DNA of 29,996 bases from a virus: the IMG/VR virus record IMGVR_UViG_3300027917_000131, positions 1 to 29,996 of that record; one strand, 5' to 3'. Under the pieces are notes generated by a model. That model did no database searches, was not told where the DNA came from, and worked only from the letters and a program-made list of their open reading frames with translations. Within the stretch, counting starts at the first letter, position 1. Every line of letters begins with the position of its first letter. Shown here in pieces: positions 2,616-14,191 of the stretch. The position numbers were made by a program, and so were the translations under genes.

Positions 2616-2939
2616 CTACTCAATCCAACTACAACAACCGTCAGTTGTACAGAAAGCTCGGACATGACCGTTATAGCTGTTACCTCCGAAATTCAAAGTA
2701 CCGTCACAATTTGGACAGGGTATATGGTAGGTATCATCCCTATAACGAGAACCTGAGTGACGGAAGAACTCATTCACTGCCTGTACAGCTTTAGAGAACC
2801 TCTCCATAGCTGACTTTTCTTCATCAGTCATCATTTCCCTAGGACCATACTTGAAGTCGAGAACTTTAGACTTCTCTGTCATAGGTTGAACTGAGACGAT
2901 ATCATCCGCAGTCAGTGTTGGTAATTTCTTCCCAGTCAT
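2616..2939 (-). CDS. Zinc-ribbon protein, 107 aa
   Basis: A hypothetical protein with a C-terminal zinc-ribbon-like element: CPNCDGTLNF near residue 75 and CTTDGC near residue 97, spaced like a C4 ribbon. The middle is helical and charged (residues 36-60). Its first residues, MTGKKLPTL, match those of the next gene, suggesting a shared origin of the 5' ends. It starts at 2939 in an ATGA overlap with the RlpA-like gene. Small zinc ribbons in phage replication operons often bind nucleic acid or protein partners, but nothing here identifies the target. Confidence 0.7.
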   Translation of the reverse strand: MTGKKLPTLTADDIVSVQPMTEKSKVLDFKYGPREMMTDEEKSAMERFSKAVQAVNEFFRHSGSRYRDDTYHIPCPNCDGTLNFGGNSYNGHVRAFCTTDGCCSWIE

Positions 2940-3424
2940 TGCATAACCACACTCAGTTTTGCTCGAGGTTTCTCATACATGAATACCACTTTATCGAATG
3001 CCCTATGCCCAATCCTGCGAGCGGCTGCCTTGGTCAAGTCAAATTGACCTCTATATCTCCAACCCTTCTTCAACTTTATCTGTACTTGATGCCAGTGGCA
3101 ACGTTTCTTCCATCTGATTTTCCTGGCGCGGAATCTGCCCTTGGGAGTGTCAGGTTGTCCCTTACACGGGCGAATAGCTCCAAAGGGACCGCGATCGTGT
3201 ACAACAGTATAGGTACACTTCTTCGTACGAGTGCTACAGAGATAACCCACGGTACCGAGAGGTATAGTGCGGTGTGCAATATGGTCGTCCGTATGTTTGA
3301 ACCTTCCCCCATTGGCCTTTATTTCTCCGCAATTACCGTCGCCAGGATAATAAACTGTAGCTCTTCCAAAGTCTATTGCGTATTGTGAGTTGATAGCCTG
3401 CAGTAGCAGCACAGCATATACCAC
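2936..3424 (-). CDS. RlpA-like double-psi beta-barrel protein with possible export signal
   Basis: The protein resembles the RlpA/barwin-like double-psi beta-barrel fold: an ATVYYPGDGNCG start of the barrel, HRTIPLGT near residue 52, VVHDRGPFG near 74 with the conserved Asp, and a late FDLTKAAARRIGH. RlpA proteins cleave glycan strands or bind peptidoglycan. The first 16 residues (MVYAVLLLQAINSQYA) look like a very short signal peptide. Start is a GTG at 3424 with GGAGG eight bases upstream, directly after the recA-like stop. A cell-wall-type protein between recA and a zinc-ribbon gene is out of place; it may act in lysis or entry. The middle (residues 95-125) is unusually basic. Confidence 0.72.
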   Translation of the reverse strand: MVYAVLLLQAINSQYAIDFGRATVYYPGDGNCGEIKANGGRFKHTDDHIAHRTIPLGTVGYLCSTRTKKCTYTVVHDRGPFGAIRPCKGQPDTPKGRFRARKIRWKKRCHWHQVQIKLKKGWRYRGQFDLTKAAARRIGHRAFDKVVFMYEKPRAKLSVVMQ

Positions 3425-5529: not shown

Positions 5530-6027
5530 CTATCCTCCGTGCTCGTCGGCAGCTATCATACGACGATAATTGACAGTGAGATTTTCTAACTTCTGATTGC
5601 GACCAAACACCAGTTTAGACAAGTATTGCATGTCATTATTCAGTGATTTGTTAGAACGCTTAGCTTCTCTAGCCTCCCTGACTTCTTCGTTTTGCAGCAA
5701 AATAGAGTCAATGTCATCCTTTGTCCTTTTGTAGCCAGATTCCGGGTCCTTTATTGGTATGTCAACCTTGAACGTGCTCTCTATCTCTCCTAAAAGGTCG
5801 TCTGCGTCCTCGTACTGATCGCCATATTTGCCAAGTAGGTACACCATGATGGCTTCCATCTTCATCTGGTGTTCCCACATGTCATCGATCTGTTCAAAGT
5901 CCTTGCGCTTAGCAACATTGAGAGAATCAATCAACTTTTTCACCCATGGCCTATCATCACTATCTAGGCTGGGGTTTCTGATAATACGGGCCATTAGTGG
6001 CAAGAACCATTCGCTTCTCATGCTCAT
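5530..6027 (-). CDS. Hypothetical helical protein, 165 aa
   Basis: I start this gene at ATG 6027, which overlaps the polymerase stop (ATGA); a longer frame from 6120 would run 94 bases into the polymerase. The protein begins MSMRSEWFLPLMARI and is predominantly helical and charged, with likely coiled-coil stretches near residues 60-80 and 105-140. No enzymatic motif is visible. Its place between the polymerase and SSB genes suggests a replication accessory role such as a loader or adaptor, but that is context only. Confidence 0.68.
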   Translation of the reverse strand: MSMRSEWFLPLMARIIRNPSLDSDDRPWVKKLIDSLNVAKRKDFEQIDDMWEHQMKMEAIMVYLLGKYGDQYEDADDLLGEIESTFKVDIPIKDPESGYKRTKDDIDSILLQNEEVREAREAKRSNKSLNNDMQYLSKLVFGRNQKLENLTVNYRRMIAADEHGG

Positions 6028-8987
6028 GCCGCGAACTCCCACACTACTTGCATGCGCTGTTTTTCTTCTTTTTCGTATGCCTTGGCAGTGCCAGGGATGG
6101 GCTTTGGGGGCTTGTCCCACGATAATAAGGTGCGTTTCAACAGGGAATAATCCTCAACAGACCCATCCACCTTGACCTGTCTTGGTTTATCGGTTAGAGA
6201 CAATGTGCACGTGTTGCCCCACGATATACCCACTTCGAAATCGACCTTCAGTGGGACAATAAGCCATGGCAGATGGTTGTGCATCCAATCCACCATCATT
6301 TTCTTGGCTATGATCAGTGTTTGATACAATTCACCAGGCCAAATGGCATGACAAATGGAATCGTGCACGGTGGCCCATACGTTGGTCTTCATTTCTCTCG
6401 AGTTCAAAGCTTCAACAATCAATCGTAGAGCTGCAGTAGCAATGTCACCAGCCGTCATCTGTATCGGGTTGTTGATCCCACGTCTGCGGAGGTCGTCACG
6501 TTCGAAGTCCTGCAAGTCAAATCTTCTGCGAAAATCAAAATAAGAGTATATTGCCTTGTTCTTGTTGGCCAACTCCTCTTGTCTCTGGAAATACTTCCTC
6601 ACGGTCGGAAACGTGTCAAGGTACTTTTTGATGATCACCTGTGCTTCTTCTTTAGTGATCTTCAAATCGTCGGCGACAGCTTGTGCGCCTCTGCCACCAA
6701 TAGCCACACCGAGGGAAACAGCTTTGAGATTACTACGATCTGCCTTCTTCAGTTGGTCCTCCGGTATGCCAAGACACATGGCACCAACAAAGGTGTGGAT
6801 ATCTTTGTCATCCCTGAAAGCTTGGATCATGGCCTCGTCGCCAGTGTAATTGGCCAACATCCTCAACTCCATTTGCGAATAGTCGAAGATGCCGATCAAA
6901 CCTTTAGGGTGGTGAGGCACCACACAAGTCTTGACAATACTACCACGTTTGATGCCATGCCAACCAGGGTGACCCTTCACATTGAGACGGAACGTTTCAG
7001 TAGTTCGCACACCGAAGTTAGCGTGACCGATGTTATCCTCGTCCAAGTGAGCACCAATCTTATTTACCCAACTGCCGAGTGTCTTATGGTCAGTGTTATA
7101 TTCAATAAGCTTGTCGATCACTTCTATGATTTTGTTGATCTTTGATTTTTGCTCTAGATCTTCTGTCTTCCTGGCTTTTCCTAATGCCTCCACCAATGAT
7201 TGATGGATTTCGTCGATCACGTCTTTGTCCACGGATCGATTGCCAGCATCCGTCACTCTGGGACAGTCGAGACCAAGGATATCGTACAGCAAGATAGCCT
7301 TATTGACGTAATACCCAAGCTTTATTTCTTGTACTTCTTTCTTAGCAGTCCTGTTCCTGATGCTGCGTATTCTTTCAATGTACCCACGATCATCAAACCA
7401 CTCATAAAGGTCTGCCAGGTTTTCCTCTAACCTCACTCTGATTTCACTCAGACGAGCATTATCAACCTTCACCCCTCTGAATTCCATCTCAGCGATCGGC
7501 AGAATAGCAGGCACAGACCATTTCTTGTGTGCTTCCCACAAATCCTCATCGCGCAACATCCGATCAAAGACTTCCCACAGACGGAAAGTGCCATCAGCAT
7601 CGGCGCAACAATACCGATGCACAATGTCCAAATCAACATCGCCCATGTGTTTGGGGCGATAGATCTGTGGGTCGTTCTTGAAGAACTTGCATCCGAATGG
7701 CGGTTGCTTTGGGTCAATCTCTACTGGGTGATACCTTTGTTCTAGTGGTATCCAATCCGGTATCTCCAGTAACGCATGGCTCAACTCCTCCTTATGGTTG
7801 ACCATGTCAGTAAACCTGGTCACCAAAGTCTCCAAGCCATGCTCGGTACCATCGTTATAGATCGTCCAACTCTGCAACATCGTGTCATCCACGATGTGTT
7901 TTATTATGATGCCAGCAACCCTAAGCCACAAAATATCGAACTTCAAATTGTGCCCGATCACAGGCACTTCTTCCAACATGTCGTTCAATATCGATACGAT
8001 TGCATTCAGTTGAAGGGTGTCTTTCCAGAACGGTGACTCAGGATGATTGAACGGTATGGTGAACGCTCTGCCAGACCCATCGGATATTGACAGAAGGAGC
8101 AATTCCCCATATGGAAGCAAAAACATTTCCAACCCGGTAGTCTCGGTGTCGAGAGCGATTCCGGGTATCCTCCCTGCTCGATATTCATCTTTTATGTTTT
8201 GGCAAGCATCGGCTATGGCTTCTATGGAATCGAGGAGTTTGTAATTACCCCATTGGGTGTGCTCTTCACCGCTGGCCTTGAGATACAAATATCTAAGGTC
8301 CTCTGTCAGCATTTGCTCCAGGGCTTCTGCCGACATGCTGAACTTGCCATGCTTTGGTTTGTTTTCACCACTGCGCAAAATAGCGGATGGGTGATATGAC
8401 GGCCAAAGGGTGAACTCCTCGCATTTTAGATCTTGATATCCATCCCTGATGGCACTGGCGAGGGCTTTTTTCATTTGCCCTTCTGTCCGTGCCCCATAAT
8501 CCTCGCCAGTGACAGTCACACAGCGCTCATACCGATATTTTAGTGTTGGTACTTCTACAAAGTGTCTTTTCTGTCTGGACTTTCCTACAGTCTTGGCTTG
8601 TGGCAAGAAGAAATTGATCGCTGACATGCCGAGAGGAACAATAAACACCGGACGATATTTAGAAATCGCCAACTCCAAATATCGTCTGCAAGCTGTTATT
8701 TCGTCAGCCTTGGGAGGCCTGACTCCCTTTCTGTGATTGCGCTCATCTTTCCATGGTACGCAACGAACAATGTTCTCAAATCGACACCATGATTGTGGTA
8801 TGCCGATATTTTCTAGTATCTCATTCAGCTTCTTGCCTGCAGGACCAACAAATGGTTCGTTCTTTTTGTCCTCCTTCCTGCCTGGCGCCTCCCCAACAAA
8901 CATAATGATCGGCTTTTCAGTTCCTCTTCCAGGCACACATACAGAGATAGCGTGTTTGTGGAGCGAACATTTGGTGCAGTTGGCCAT
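6024..8987 (-). CDS. Uracil-DNA glycosylase / 3'-5' exonuclease / family A DNA polymerase fusion
   Basis: A 987-residue replicative polymerase. Residues 1-225 resemble iron-sulphur uracil-DNA glycosylases (families 4/5): C4-x2-C7, GEAPG at 32-36, PFVGPAG, C76 and C100 completing a four-Cys set, and PSYHPSA near 197. The 3'-5' exonuclease follows: DTETTG (280-285), GHNLKFD (345-351) and Y459-x3-D463. The polymerase has motif A DYSQMELR (Asp702), motif B from R751 and K755, and motif C HDS (His875, Asp876). There is no 5' nuclease; that is a separate gene. In motif B, the residues at the E. coli Phe762 and Tyr766 positions appear to be Leu and Ile. Phage SPO1 polymerase also carries a glycosylase-like domain. 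A DpoZ-like role with PurZ is possible. Confidence 0.93.
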   Translation of the reverse strand: MANCTKCSLHKHAISVCVPGRGTEKPIIMFVGEAPGRKEDKKNEPFVGPAGKKLNEILENIGIPQSWCRFENIVRCVPWKDERNHRKGVRPPKADEITACRRYLELAISKYRPVFIVPLGMSAINFFLPQAKTVGKSRQKRHFVEVPTLKYRYERCVTVTGEDYGARTEGQMKKALASAIRDGYQDLKCEEFTLWPSYHPSAILRSGENKPKHGKFSMSAEALEQMLTEDLRYLYLKASGEEHTQWGNYKLLDSIEAIADACQNIKDEYRAGRIPGIALDTETTGLEMFLLPYGELLLLSISDGSGRAFTIPFNHPESPFWKDTLQLNAIVSILNDMLEEVPVIGHNLKFDILWLRVAGIIIKHIVDDTMLQSWTIYNDGTEHGLETLVTRFTDMVNHKEELSHALLEIPDWIPLEQRYHPVEIDPKQPPFGCKFFKNDPQIYRPKHMGDVDLDIVHRYCCADADGTFRLWEVFDRMLRDEDLWEAHKKWSVPAILPIAEMEFRGVKVDNARLSEIRVRLEENLADLYEWFDDRGYIERIRSIRNRTAKKEVQEIKLGYYVNKAILLYDILGLDCPRVTDAGNRSVDKDVIDEIHQSLVEALGKARKTEDLEQKSKINKIIEVIDKLIEYNTDHKTLGSWVNKIGAHLDEDNIGHANFGVRTTETFRLNVKGHPGWHGIKRGSIVKTCVVPHHPKGLIGIFDYSQMELRMLANYTGDEAMIQAFRDDKDIHTFVGAMCLGIPEDQLKKADRSNLKAVSLGVAIGGRGAQAVADDLKITKEEAQVIIKKYLDTFPTVRKYFQRQEELANKNKAIYSYFDFRRRFDLQDFERDDLRRRGINNPIQMTAGDIATAALRLIVEALNSREMKTNVWATVHDSICHAIWPGELYQTLIIAKKMMVDWMHNHLPWLIVPLKVDFEVGISWGNTCTLSLTDKPRQVKVDGSVEDYSLLKRTLLSWDKPPKPIPGTAKAYEKEEKQRMQVVWEFAA

Positions 8988-8990
8988 GAC

Positions 8991-9305
8991 TTATAGTTTG
9001 TCCAACTCTGCTTTAACTTCCTTGGTGAAATTGATCTTTGCTTGACAGTCTGCCCATTTGACCATTGTGTGGGGCACACCATCGATATCGAACACTGTGC
9101 CAATGAATCTGGCCACCAGCCAATATTCGCCAGACTCACATTGCGGTTCGTTGTCTCTCAGTCCAGGACCAGCCGTGACGATGCGTGCTACCAAACTTTC
9201 TTTCTTGGCGGATTCCGGCGTGATGATCAGCTGGGACGCATTCAGGTCAATTCGTCTTACCAATACAAGATCATGATATGGCTTGATTGAGTCTATTCCG
9301 CGCAT
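8991..9305 (-). CDS. GroES-like co-chaperonin
   Basis: A 104-residue protein with Cpn10 features: IKPYHDLVLVRRID at residues 8-21 (compare I-R-P-L-H-D-R-V-I-V-K-R in GroES), a short mobile-loop-like section (NASQLIITPES), VARIVTAGPG for the barrel strand, a GEYWLVARFIGT stretch and a C-terminal strand ending in QAKINF. Phage versions such as T4 gp31 replace host GroES so that GroEL can fold large phage proteins. No GroEL gene is seen here, so it would use the host's. It lies just ahead of the polymerase and overlaps the upstream stop by one base (TAATG). The mobile loop is shorter than usual, so confidence is moderate. Confidence 0.7.
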   Translation of the reverse strand: MRGIDSIKPYHDLVLVRRIDLNASQLIITPESAKKESLVARIVTAGPGLRDNEPQCESGEYWLVARFIGTVFDIDGVPHTMVKWADCQAKINFTKEVKAELDKL

Positions 9306-9629: not shown

Positions 9630-10568
9630 CTACCTTAGAATAAACGACACTTGCTCGGTGAAGGTATCGAAGGAACTAGCATTATTCAGCCTGTCTTGAA
9701 AGTCCTTAGCTGAATCTGGATCATCTCCATATTCCAGCTCCACGATACTGCATTTACACCCCCTACGTGTCAGTTTTTTTGCCAGGTCAATCGATTCTTG
9801 TCTAGCGTCTCCATCCAGGGCTATATAGTAATGGTCAAAACCAGCTTCTACCAACATGTGTGTTTGTTCCGCCGTCACATTCTTCCCGTATGTAGCTATT
9901 GCATTCAACCCTGCAGCTATGGCGGAAAATACACCCTCAGTTATGATCACATCTTTGTACCGAACAGCGTATGACAGGTGATATATTTTGTCTCTTGCAT
10001 TCGATCCAGGAGGATTTTTGTATCTCAATTTGTGATTTCTGTATGTCCTGGCTACCCAATATAGTGTTCTTCCCTCCTCGTCATAATCGGGTAATATGAT
10101 TCTGCCCTTACCAGCATGATCACTACGATCTTGCAACGGCACATTCTTCATGTTGGAGGTACCAACACCAACACCGTAGTGATTGATTTGATATTCGGTC
10201 AACCCCCTATCGAGTAGATATTTATAAGCTTCCATAAGAGGAGAAATATCCTCATAGTCCTTTGGCAATTCGACAAAAGTTTCCTTCGGAGGCTCCTTGT
10301 AGTTGTATTTCAAACTTCTGACAAATTCTTCCCATTTGGACAAATCTACCGTGTTGAATATCTGCAATTTCAAACGGGAGACTGGCCCCCTAGCTCTACA
10401 CCGGTAACAGTTGTACCAACCCCGTATCCCGTGATAATACTTGGTGGGGTTGACATACAGATGATGGCTCTTGTCCTTTTTGCCGACCCTCTGCAGACAG
10501 AAAGGGCAATTGAATCGGTATTCGTCCGATCTCCCGGCTTTGATGTATTCACCGAGACCAGTGATCAT
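9630..10568 (-). CDS. DnaG-like primase (zinc finger plus Toprim)
   Basis: A 312-residue primase that would synthesise RNA primers for the lagging strand. The N-terminal zinc-binding domain has C21-x2-C24 and C54-x2-C57. The Toprim catalytic core has IITEGVFSA (Glu211) and YIALDGD with Asp252 and Asp254. The protein lacks a C-terminal helicase domain; the DnaB-like helicase is encoded separately at 12612-13985. The start ATG at 10568 overlaps the stop of the winged-helix gene (ATGA). It is shorter than bacterial DnaG (about 580 residues), as is usual for phage primases. Confidence 0.9.
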   Translation of the reverse strand: MITGLGEYIKAGRSDEYRFNCPFCLQRVGKKDKSHHLYVNPTKYYHGIRGWYNCYRCRARGPVSRLKLQIFNTVDLSKWEEFVRSLKYNYKEPPKETFVELPKDYEDISPLMEAYKYLLDRGLTEYQINHYGVGVGTSNMKNVPLQDRSDHAGKGRIILPDYDEEGRTLYWVARTYRNHKLRYKNPPGSNARDKIYHLSYAVRYKDVIITEGVFSAIAAGLNAIATYGKNVTAEQTHMLVEAGFDHYYIALDGDARQESIDLAKKLTRRGCKCSIVELEYGDDPDSAKDFQDRLNNASSFDTFTEQVSFILR

Positions 10569-11032: not shown

Positions 11033-12622
11033 CTACCACGCGCGTCTGTCGATCAACCCTTCTGGGCTGAACCTGGTGGAAATCAAAGTCACTGGAACCT
11101 TCCCAAACTTCTCTATGCGTTCGATAAATTTCTTGGTTCCCTCGGTCAGTTCTTCGTATTTGTTGGCCCTTCTGTTATCGACAGAAATATAGTCTGCAAA
11201 GGTGAGGGCCAGATCGGTTGGCGAGTTCAACCGAAGAGCTGCCTCGAATTGTGGCCATTCAAAAGTACCAACACGTCTCTTGCGTTTGGTGGTGGAGGTA
11301 GTCTCGGTCTTCACCAGCTCGTCGAGGGGCACACCGGATTCCATGGATAGCTGTTCGATAGTGATTTCCTCCGCCATCGGACCACTGGTGCCGCCAACAG
11401 GAGACTGTACTCTGATCGGATGTGCCCTGATAACCATAATGATGTTGCGAATGTTGTGCGGTGGAACACCAGACTCGGACAAGATACCAGAGACGGAACA
11501 ATCTCTCGATGTCACGTATGGGAAGGGGCCGTGATACAAACTAAGGCCTGTGCCCTGCGTGCCTTCGACCAAGATATTGATACCGGATTCGTACGCTTCG
11601 TCGAGCACTTGGGAAGTTGGTTTCAAATAGGGCTTGAGTTCTTTGATGTCTCTGGCCAGGGTGGTTGTTTCTGGATCGCGCATGATGCGCCTAGAGACAG
11701 CCGATCCAACACCCTGTCCGGTTGACCCTATACCACCGACAATGGTGTTAGCCTCCCTTTCTCTGTCGGCTTCGGTGACAATCAATGCTTGTGGATCGAT
11801 CCACAGCCTCTCTGGAGAAAGATTGTTATCTCTTATCTCCTCGAGGAGTTTGGGTACCCATAGCACTGCCCCTGGTGCCAAGGCAACCTTTGCTGTTTTG
11901 TTATGACGTGTTCCTGATGGGATGTGATGGAAGCAATAGACCTCACCAGACCAGGGCTCGAATACCTTGTGTCCTGCGTTTGCCCCACCACTGCGAATGA
12001 ATAAATCGTATTCCGGAGCGATATATGATACTACGTTGCCCTTGCCTTCACTGCCGAATTGTCCACCTAGAATAACATCGACTCTCTTTTGTCCTGCTCT
12101 GGTTCCGATGAATCCGACGAACTCTGCCACGTCATTCATCTTCCTGGAATAATCGAACAAAGAGGTGTCTATGATGGCATCGGCATGGCTGGCCAAAGCT
12201 CGAACGGCACATTCGATATCAGTCTCGTATATCCTGAGATATGGTGCGTCTCCTGGCCGATTACGGCTGACGTGCCTCTTCTTCAAGGTGGCGAATGGGG
12301 CGAAGACGTGAACATGCGTAACCTTTGACCTTGGAAACGCTTTTTTGATTGCTTCGATCTGGGGAATAGTCCTCACACAGTCGATAACAATCCTATTAGC
12401 TTTCACCTTCTTGGCGGCATCTGCCACCCATTGACCATTGGTAGCATCATCCAAGCTGTTACCGCCGTGGATCAAGGCGAATCTGGTCTCATCCGATACG
12501 GCTTTCTTGACCACCTCATTGGTCTTCAGAATCTCGGCACCATATCTCTGCGACAATATCTCAGCAAGTCTAGACTTACCGGCAGCAACAGATCCGGATA
12601 GTATTACCACACTATTCGTCAT
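11033..12622 (-). CDS. purZ: Nucleotide kinase-like domain fused to PurZ-type adenylosuccinate synthetase
   Basis: A 529-residue fusion. Residues 1-175 are a P-loop kinase-like domain: Walker A GSVAAGKS (10-17), VIDCVRT near 79-85, and an Arg-rich section (KKRHVSRNRPGD) resembling a lid. Residues 180-529 are an adenylosuccinate synthetase: GGQFGSEGKG (186-195), NAGHK with His218, GSTGQGVGSAVSRR (299-312), VEGTQGTGLS and GPFPYVTSRD (352-374). The PurA catalytic Asp of G-D-E-G-K-G is Ser191, and the PurA GTP motif T-K-L-D is T-F-A-D (474-477). Both changes are those I know from phage PurZ, which joins Asp to dGMP for 2-aminoadenine DNA. ATG 12622 has AAGGA upstream; a GTG at 12643 is possible. 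The kinase may phosphorylate dZMP or supply dGMP. Confidence 0.85.
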   Translation of the reverse strand: MTNSVVILSGSVAAGKSRLAEILSQRYGAEILKTNEVVKKAVSDETRFALIHGGNSLDDATNGQWVADAAKKVKANRIVIDCVRTIPQIEAIKKAFPRSKVTHVHVFAPFATLKKRHVSRNRPGDAPYLRIYETDIECAVRALASHADAIIDTSLFDYSRKMNDVAEFVGFIGTRAGQKRVDVILGGQFGSEGKGNVVSYIAPEYDLFIRSGGANAGHKVFEPWSGEVYCFHHIPSGTRHNKTAKVALAPGAVLWVPKLLEEIRDNNLSPERLWIDPQALIVTEADREREANTIVGGIGSTGQGVGSAVSRRIMRDPETTTLARDIKELKPYLKPTSQVLDEAYESGINILVEGTQGTGLSLYHGPFPYVTSRDCSVSGILSESGVPPHNIRNIIMVIRAHPIRVQSPVGGTSGPMAEEITIEQLSMESGVPLDELVKTETTSTTKRKRRVGTFEWPQFEAALRLNSPTDLALTFADYISVDNRRANKYEELTEGTKKFIERIEKFGKVPVTLISTRFSPEGLIDRRAW

Positions 12623-13985
12623 CATCTTCCTTCGCCTTTCCACCAGTTATTTGTTTCGATAACAATTTTTCTTCTTTGCTAACCTGCCGGATGTAGCATT
12701 GGTCCAAATAGGCCATCAAATAGATAGTGGTTTTGTCAATACCTCTTCTAGACTTGTCTATGTACAACCTAGCCCTATCATTGTTGCCTTCTTGTCTGGT
12801 CCTGTTGAAGCTACATATTCCGTCCGACTTGGCCACTTTGCGCCAGCTGTCCGCGATACGCTCTTTGGTGATCACTTCCCATGGTCTATCGCGGTCAAAG
12901 ATAAACCTTTGTATCTGCGAAGCTGTCCACACAGCACAATTAAAATCGTTGGCAATACCAATGATCTCAGAGTATATTCTGCCTATGCTCTGATACTCGT
13001 TTTCATGTACTGGCTTCAGCTCCTCAGGATAGTCAAGAATCACCAATCCGGGCTTGATGCCGTCATGAGTTATCAATCTCGATAGATAAGCTCGTATTTG
13101 CGGCATGGACACAGAGTGAGGGGAGTAATATTTGATCCTGAGATATCTACCCCTCAACTGGTCCAGTTTGTCAGCCCGTTCTTGATATTCTGTCGTGTTG
13201 TCAGTTACGTCATCGATTCTGACTTTGCAGAATCGGGCGGCATAACGTACGCCAACATCGACATGATCCATATCGCCGATTGTGATATGCACAACGGCTT
13301 CTTCGTTCATGATCGCGGCACAACCCAAGTTGATCAACCACTGGGTTTTACCCGATCCTGGAGGCGCCATCACAACCCACACTTCCCCGCGACCAGTACC
13401 ACCGTGTTGGGTGCGGTCGAATTCGGGAATCATGGTTGGTATGCGCGAAACCCCGTAGTGTGTCTCGTATGCCATTCCCGGTATTCGCTGAAACAAACCA
13501 AACAATTGCATACCAGCACTATCGATGTCTTCACCAACAGTCAGTGCCTTATTGATAATGTCGCCAACTTGGTCAAACGCGGAATCGTGGTCTATCAGAT
13601 CGGCCACTTTGATTATTGCAGACTTCAATGCCTGCCGCTTGCCAAATCTGATCACCCTCTCTCTTACCGCTTTAGCATCACCGAGATCGATTTCATAGAT
13701 AGTGTCTATTTGTTCCACCACCGTGTTGATCACATCACTCGGGATGTGATAGTTGGAAGCATACTCCCGTATCTCTTCCACAATGGTGGCTTGGCTCGGT
13801 ATCTCTTGATGTCTATGATACAGAGACATGGATACCCTGATCAAGGAGGCCAAGTATTCATAGTCAAAGTATTTGTAGTCTACAACGTCTTCGTATTTCT
13901 GTATGAATCCTATATCGCGCAGGCATAACGCAGCTATCTTCTTCTGGAAGGCTTCACTATATTTGTAGGATTCCTGTTTCTTCAT
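12612..13985 (-). CDS. DnaB-like replicative helicase
   Basis: A 457-residue RecA-fold helicase. The N-terminal 150 residues are helical, matching the DnaB primase-binding region. Walker A is MAPPGSGKTQW (about 206-216), Walker B is LVILDYPEEL (about 309), and an arginine-rich C-terminal segment (FNRTRQEGNNDRARLYIDKS) fits the SF4 helicase end. It would unwind the fork and recruit the primase encoded downstream. I start it at ATG 13985, overlapping the previous stop (ATGA); 12 more codons would be needed for the longer frame. It overlaps the purZ-like gene by 11 bases, placing that gene directly in the replisome operon. Confidence 0.88.
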   Translation of the reverse strand: MKKQESYKYSEAFQKKIAALCLRDIGFIQKYEDVVDYKYFDYEYLASLIRVSMSLYHRHQEIPSQATIVEEIREYASNYHIPSDVINTVVEQIDTIYEIDLGDAKAVRERVIRFGKRQALKSAIIKVADLIDHDSAFDQVGDIINKALTVGEDIDSAGMQLFGLFQRIPGMAYETHYGVSRIPTMIPEFDRTQHGGTGRGEVWVVMAPPGSGKTQWLINLGCAAIMNEEAVVHITIGDMDHVDVGVRYAARFCKVRIDDVTDNTTEYQERADKLDQLRGRYLRIKYYSPHSVSMPQIRAYLSRLITHDGIKPGLVILDYPEELKPVHENEYQSIGRIYSEIIGIANDFNCAVWTASQIQRFIFDRDRPWEVITKERIADSWRKVAKSDGICSFNRTRQEGNNDRARLYIDKSRRGIDKTTIYLMAYLDQCYIRQVSKEEKLLSKQITGGKAKEDDDE

Positions 13986-14191
13986 TTCGGTGTCATTGTC
14001 TTGCCGTGTTGTTTCAAACAATCATCGGAGATACAACTACCGTCTGGATCGACTTGAATAAATCCACAATCCTCGCATATTACTACGGCGGCTTTGCCTT
14101 CTGCCCATGTTTTCTCGTCTGTGATACCAGCCAGATCTCTGGTATCTTCGCCCCATATTTCTATCGAACATTGCTTGCAAAAGTTAGCCAT
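13982..14191 (-). CDS. Small zinc-binding protein, 69 aa
   Basis: A tiny protein with CKQC at residues 5-8, CEDCG near 39-43, and two further Cys near 52-57 (CISDDC). This could form one or two zinc ribbons or knuckles. Its start shares one base with the preceding stop (TAATG), and its own stop overlaps the helicase start. It may be a helicase or DNA-binding accessory protein; no specific family recognised. Confidence 0.7.
   Translation of the reverse strand: MANFCKQCSIEIWGEDTRDLAGITDEKTWAEGKAAVVICEDCGFIQVDPDGSCISDDCLKQHGKTMTPK

Follow-up and report, generated by a model that had tools for sequence, protein, structure and literature searches.

The question raised by this locus is whether a phage gene that resembles the synthetase PurZ, placed among replication genes, marks a phage that replaces adenine by 2-aminoadenine (Z) in its DNA. 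The window, i.e. the whole stretch of DNA analyzed here, is a virus record of 29,996 bases, a fragment, and its minus strand carries nearly all genes. The initial annotation placed the synthetase at 11033-12076. These coordinates cut off an N-terminal kinase domain encoded by the same gene. The gene is thus a kinase-PurZ-like fusion at 11033-12622 (minus strand), encoding 529 amino acids from the ATG at 12622. The reading frame stays open up to a GTG at 12643 (536 amino acids); the ATG is the likelier start, given the AAGGA upstream of it, the overlap with the dnaB stop and the disorder of residues 1-7 in the structure model. Residues are numbered here from the GTG at 12643, so that S198 below corresponds to Ser191 in the 529-residue numbering.

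The fusion gene lies between helicase and primase genes, as had been noted. The DnaB-like replicative helicase gene is upstream and overlaps the fusion-gene start (12612-14021, minus strand; PHROG 19, E=2e-52), and the TOPRIM DNA primase gene follows downstream on the same strand after two small open reading frames (9630-10568; PHROG 47, E=2e-45). Further along the minus strand, a family-4 UDG is fused to a family A DNA polymerase (6024-8987; UDG E=1e-25, DNA_pol_A E=1e-51). The polymerase scored 87.7 bits against the DpoZ model, far under the cut-off of 500, and by this model does not belong to the DpoZ family. A GroES-like co-chaperonin gene is found between the polymerase and primase genes (8991-9305). 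The portal, polymerase, helicase and primase genes that surround the fusion gene are of phage type. Together with the 16 genes that are syntenic in a related viral contig (L137), this ruled out contamination of the window by a bacterial operon. The E-values, the conservation of the fusion and the syntenic relative likewise ruled out a chance match or artefact for the fusion gene itself.

Residues 186-534 (11042-12088, minus strand) were assigned by Foldseek to a Ser-type adenylosuccinate-synthetase (PurZ-like) domain, and residues 188-534 match adenylosuccinate synthetases, with Pfam PF00709 at E=1.4e-55. The PurA fold with a Ser in GSEGKG and a retained NAGH His had been described correctly: GGQFGSEGKG, NAGH and LTFADY are all present. 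In GSEGKG (12038-12055, minus strand) S198 replaces the catalytic Asp of PurA; column counts gave Ser at this position in all 36 fusions, as well as in each further Ser-type row that was grouped, and Asp in 11 of 11 PurA rows. His225 of NAGH (11969-11980, minus strand) is the catalytic His, which is kept in all rows of all groups counted. The aspartate loop ETTSTTKRKRR (residues 447-457; 11273-11305, minus strand) contains T449, which is Thr as in PurZ and Gly in PurA, with Thr in 31 of 36 fusions. Czernecki et al. name the equivalent position, T273, as PurZ-specific (PMC8342488). In total, S307, P409-I410 and T449 are common to the fusion and to PurZ/PurZ0 and are not found in PurA.

Two further positions bear on the substrates. 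The TKLD motif of PurA had been read as TFAD in this protein (residues 481-484; 11192-11203, minus strand), and use of ATP or dATP had been considered. The Lys is indeed lost, but the Asp for nucleotide recognition, here guanine, is retained: position 484 is Asp in 36/36 fusions, 12/12 proteins of the PurZ0 clade and 11/11 PurA, whereas the ATP-using PurZ mostly carry N or Q (9 of 12). Since Asp484 is kept, GTP rather than ATP or dATP is the predicted co-substrate of the fusion synthetase, which speaks against the earlier proposal. R454, whose loop contacts aspartate and ribose in PurA, is kept in 31 of 36 fusions. A Lys or Arg at position 454 was dropped as proof of a preference for deoxy- or ribonucleotides, because PurZ enzymes themselves vary there.

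Profile comparisons placed the synthetase domain near both PurZ and PurA. PHROG 1211 (phage PurZ, '2-aminooxy adenylosuccinate synthetase') matched it with E=2.4e-65. The top-scoring NCBIfam model was archaeal-type PurA (276 bits, E=3e-82), under its own cut-off, and the protein stayed under the cut-off of every NCBIfam PurA model; the PurZ model NF038379 gave 205.5 bits, under its cut-off of 300. An AlphaFold2 model built from 40 fusion sequences had a mean pLDDT of 90.8. Foldseek comparison of its synthetase domain resulted in target-normalized TM-scores of 0.93 with Pyrococcus horikoshii PurA (5k7x), 0.85 with phiVC8 PurZ bound to dGMP (6fm1), 0.83 with S-2L PurZ and 0.81 with PurZ0 (7vf6).

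We built two trees with agreeing topologies, a quick one of 99 rows and a careful one of 59 rows; a huge-phage match (LR756501), which is a normal PurA-like protein with GDEGKG, was used as an outgroup row. The Ser-type enzymes split from PurA with support of 99 in the quick and 100/100 in the careful tree. Both trees also keep PurZ (99; 100/99) apart from the PurZ0 clade (100; 100/100). All kinase fusions fall into a single clade (100; 100/100) within the Ser-type superclade and outside the PurZ and PurZ0 clades, and a few unfused viral proteins adjoin it (92; 97/89). The proposed test in a PurA/PurZ/PurZ0 tree thus separated the protein from PurA (100/100) but placed it inside neither of the other two clades, and the label PurZ-type applies to the superclade it shares with PurZ and PurZ0, while its own clade (100/100) and its score under the PurZ-model cut-off set it apart. 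In AU tests, forcing the fusions together with PurZ was rejected (p=0.011), and forcing them with PurZ0 was weakly disfavoured, a borderline result (p=0.063); a topology in which the fusion clade branches off before all other members of the superclade was not rejected (p=0.21 for the split with PurA). The window fusion and that of L137 form a sister pair (100/99). Fusions from phages and from cells are intermixed, supported branches of the careful tree requiring three changes or more, and a single clade of all phage fusions gave p=0.061 in the AU test. This interleaving suggests that the fusion was transferred repeatedly.

The fusion can be compared with characterized enzymes. PurZ of phiVC8, S-2L and SH-Ab 15497 shares with the fusion the PurA fold, the Asp-to-Ser change, the catalytic His, the T449-type loop and the PIRV...SG loop. 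Compared with these, the fusion adds an N-terminal kinase, forms its own clade and has a GTP-type Asp where PurZ mostly has N or Q; moreover, no DatZ-MazZ cluster was seen beside it, and most of the relatives found are cellular. PurZ0 of the actinobacteriophages Ghobes, MeganNoll and Galactica (7vf6) is likewise Ser-type, with GSE(A/G)KG and the guanine-recognition Asp; here the fusion differs by its kinase, its separate clade, an Arg instead of Lys at position 454 and a lack of DmtZ-like or gp51-like neighbours. With the short archaeal PurA (P. horikoshii 2d7u/5k7x) it has the compact fold and conserved ligand residues in common, but that enzyme carries the catalytic Asp and a Gly at 449 where the fusion has Ser and Thr.

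The N-terminal part of the fusion (residues 8-180; 12104-12622, minus strand) is a P-loop NMP-kinase-like domain according to Pfam AAA_33 (P-loop kinase; E=4e-6, residues 12-134), Foldseek and residue conservation. Its Walker A motif GSVAAGKS (residues 17-24; 12572-12595, minus strand) has G17, G22 and K23 in all 39 rows of the 40-fusion alignment that reach it. Because the Walker A residues, D88, Q95, H110 and R123 are invariant or nearly so among the 40 fusions, the kinase domain looks intact and apparently active. The closest fold in Foldseek was the AMP-bound Sulfolobus adenylate-kinase-related protein 3lw7 (target-normalized TM-score 0.79). In the phage database, the nearest relatives are stand-alone kinases of haloarchaeal viruses. 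The P-loop kinase type is shared with those of HSTV-2, HRTV-7 and HCTV-6 and with the Sulfolobus UPF0200/AdkA-like protein SSO1041; the pairwise test gave 27% identity and E=1e-15. All of these are stand-alone, whereas the kinase in the window is fused to the synthetase.

A scan with patterns built on the window protein alone gave no relatives; these were reached with a motif pattern and with an alignment. In 50,697 phage records, no place covers 80% of the fusion. Nearly all of the listed matches to a GSEGKG pattern in viral contigs encode a PurA/PurZ-fold protein, and a few of the contigs among them carry the kinase fusion; a scan with the fusion alignment added full-length fusions in further viral contigs. 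The fusion is present in seven phage lineages. Two of the contigs (L137, L138) share up to 16 genes with the window at 32-63% identity and have the fusion between helicase and primase, and PolA, primase, helicase or terminase genes accompany the other phage fusions on their contigs. One 56-kb contig with overlapping ends (G007; 199/200 identical) carries the fusion, PolA and primase. The viral contigs L142, L143 and L145 carry genes of the cellular-type operon described below and are likely bacterial contamination; the synthetase of L145 is identical to one on the Roseibium suaedae chromosome. Two side observations concern the viral collection. IMG/VR holds many diverse Ser-type GSEGKG synthetases that are unannotated (L018-L136), including a viral clade that is neither PurZ nor PurZ0 (L040, L059, L061, L075, L076, L092, L095, L099 and others). 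On one phage contig with the fusion (L294, 4797-6668), a Mu F-like head protein has a C-terminal ADP-ribosyltransferase exoenzyme domain.

Partner genes of Z-DNA synthesis were searched with models for DatZ, MazZ, DmtZ (the N-terminal part of actinophage genes) and the Ghobes gp51-like neighbour; the identities of the DmtZ and gp51-like models were judged by accessions in PMC12884076. At 65 of 112 unfused viral loci among the matches listed, DmtZ-like, Ghobes-gp51-like, MazZ, DatZ or DUF550-DUF5664 neighbours were present, and most are therefore ordinary Z-phage candidates. With the models used, no DatZ, MazZ, DmtZ-like or gp51-like gene was detected in the 30-kb window, its syntenic relatives or G007. 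As the window is a fragment, this is weak evidence either way. Nucleotide-pool enzymes do recur beside the fusion in phages and in cells. In L144, a gene 4 bp downstream of the fusion (2677-3378) joins an NDT-like half, DUF4406 by Pfam, to a MazG-like half; we assigned the MazG half and the likeness to NDT by reading the sequence, and the DUF4406 half scored a marginal 4.7 bits against the DmtZ model. The apparent NDT-MazG arrangement is reminiscent of the fused DmtZ-DutZ genes in PurZ0 phages (PMC12884076). Downstream of the fusion in L141 is a MazG-like gene (E=3e-6). Neither the window nor L137 has a partner of this kind.

Relatives are encoded at 388 loci in the genome collection. We inspected 79 loci from the best 80 of the 388, a choice that favours full-length fusions. 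In 79/79 of these the fusion was matched over essentially its full length at 40-48% identity. Among these best loci, the carriers include Acidobacteria, Planctomycetes, Verrucomicrobia, Chloroflexi, Myxococcota, Actinomycetota, Pseudomonadota, Synergistota, Thermoplasmata and Nitrososphaerota. A normal PurA is also present in 13 of 14 carrier genomes checked. A strict pattern found the motif in 3 of 298 other genomes in a sample of Pseudomonadota, a lower bound, and a pattern survey of 144 Thermoplasmatota genomes gave no other carrier. Two of the three Pseudomonadota carriers have the fusion with DUF7002, and in the third the kinase and synthetase are adjacent but separate genes. A Pseudomonadota locus with such neighbouring genes is L299 (49-1458 and 1477-2508), where the kinase is the C-terminal part of a 470-residue protein and matches phage dNMP kinases (PHROG 139).

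Neighbour clustering of the cellular loci (L176-L254) revealed a conserved operon of M78-macrodomain, kinase-PurZ and DUF7002 genes (e.g. L176, 8611-12289), with the two partner genes on either side of the fusion at most loci. The cultured strain Roseibium suaedae DSM 22153 is among those whose operon was read. Among the best 80 of 388, models detected the DUF7002 gene (about 224 codons) within 4 kb of the fusion in 76/79 loci, the M78-macrodomain gene in 56/79 and a further, unfused kinase from this family in 19/79. The M78-macrodomain protein (about 458 amino acids) combines an M78/IrrE protease domain with a macrodomain and matches the PADLOC capP and DarG models, the latter with E=2.7e-8. 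The structure model of DUF7002 (pLDDT 96.7) matches DarT1 (8baq; Foldseek probability 1.00, E=2e-4) and also other ADP-ribosyltransferases. As in DarTG, a DarT-like fold is thus paired with a macrodomain protein, but here the macrodomain forms one protein with an M78/IrrE protease, kinase-PurZ is the core of the operon, and DUF7002 resembles DarT at the fold level only (9-14% identity). In 17 of the 79 loci (best 80 of 388), MazG, HD (YfbR/DatZ-like) or NUDIX genes are found no more than 4 kb from the fusion; farther out in the same loci there are none, though more DNA lies there. The c9 MazG, HD and NUDIX models were derived from the neighbours of these loci, unlike the MazZ model. Genes for type I restriction subunits, integrases, SNF2-PLD helicases and ThiF recur nearby. 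In Hyphomicrobiales (L216, L245, L246, L251, L253) an HD-domain YfbR-like protein and a protein of about 500 amino acids recur near the operon. Rhizobial plasmids, several of them conjugative, carry the fusion under the sole label adenylosuccinate synthetase, followed by a gene for a hypothetical protein. By analogy with DarTG, we consider the three-gene operon a candidate defence system. Our literature search found no paper on the kinase-PurZ fusion or its operon, and nothing relevant on DUF7002 or on adenylosuccinate synthetase with defence.

How the fusion would act has to be inferred, including its substrate, co-substrate, reaction order and product fate. As the fusion is kept in seven phage lineages and at all cellular loci inspected (best 80 of 388), the two domains probably work together. 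In the mechanism we propose, GTP would serve as the phosphate donor for the Ser-type synthetase, which would attach aspartate at the 6-position of a guanine mononucleotide, most probably dGMP. Host PurB would convert the resulting N6-succino-2-amino-adenine nucleotide to (d)ZMP, which the fused NMP kinase would phosphorylate to the diphosphate. In known Z phages the steps after PurZ are left to host enzymes (PMC12884076). Expressed with the replication genes of this phage, the enzyme would supply dZTP for full or partial incorporation into phage DNA. We judge the chances of this bifunctional scheme, carried through to dZTP for phage DNA, to be about even. A Z-type nucleotide is the likely product of the fusion, and a Z genome is possible for this phage.

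The kinase could instead act upstream of the synthetase: its substrate would be deoxyguanosine, or a different purine deoxynucleoside from salvage, and it would provide dGMP rather than handle dZMP. Consecutive steps are often fused, and P-loop kinases of the AAA_33/AAA_18/CPT/Zeta type vary in substrate; structurally, however, the domain comes closest to an NMP-type kinase with bound AMP, and the homologue encoded by a separate gene has its matches among dNMP kinases, so we regard this order as very improbable. Only slightly better is the case for an ordinary supplementary PurA that would turn IMP into adenylosuccinate, with the kinase making ADP/dADP, so that phage replication would be supplied with adenine nucleotides. 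The higher score of archaeal-type PurA (276 versus 205 bits for PurZ), the P. horikoshii fold match and the retained GTP-type Asp and R454 are in keeping with it. Nevertheless, the catalytic Asp is replaced by Ser in every fusion counted, as in all PurZ/PurZ0 sampled, PurA is split off with full support, every PurA cut-off is missed, and nearly all carrier genomes checked already have a normal PurA, which makes this explanation improbable.

A stronger contender is that the family makes a modified purine nucleotide for a conflict system, in which the fusion is the middle gene of the cellular operon, and not for DNA replacement; only the synthetase-kinase would have passed to phages, or from them, to serve as a counter-measure or nucleotide-pool weapon. 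The close association with DUF7002 and M78-macrodomain genes, their matches to DarT1, capP and DarG, the recurring restriction, integrase and SNF2-PLD genes, the patchy spread, the occurrence on plasmids and the interleaved tree all favour it. Against it, the phage copies sit beside replication genes without either partner (no DUF7002 or M78-macrodomain gene was found on phage fusion contigs within the DNA examined), and neither the fusion nor DUF7002 is represented by a PADLOC model. We consider this account doubtful but worth keeping in view. Also tentative, and at best possible, is a combined scenario in which bacteria, archaea and phages share a kinase-PurZ enzyme for Z nucleotides, which cells would use in immunity with the DarT-like ADP-ribosyltransferase and the protease-macrodomain protein, and phages on its own for Z-DNA or counter-defence.

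Even if the bifunctional enzyme makes dZTP in this phage, the original role of the fusion may be other than Z-DNA, because cellular accessory genes, set in another operon, make up most of the relatives found. For the same reason, i.e. the chromosomal location of most relatives in a conserved operon, a PurZ-like gene alone is no marker of a Z genome. PurZ-type enzymes have been regarded as phage enzymes, plus a handful of archaeal relatives (PMC12884076). Our results add a kinase-fused third lineage that spans many bacterial and archaeal phyla and also occurs in phages, and reveal an operon, encoding a macrodomain and a DarT-like ADP-ribosyltransferase, that is hidden under the labels 'adenylosuccinate synthetase' and 'hypothetical protein'. 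The fusion supplies a candidate dedicated dZMP kinase, which would be useful in making Z-DNA. If the tentative immune-system scenario is true, 2-aminoadenine chemistry would not be confined to phages.
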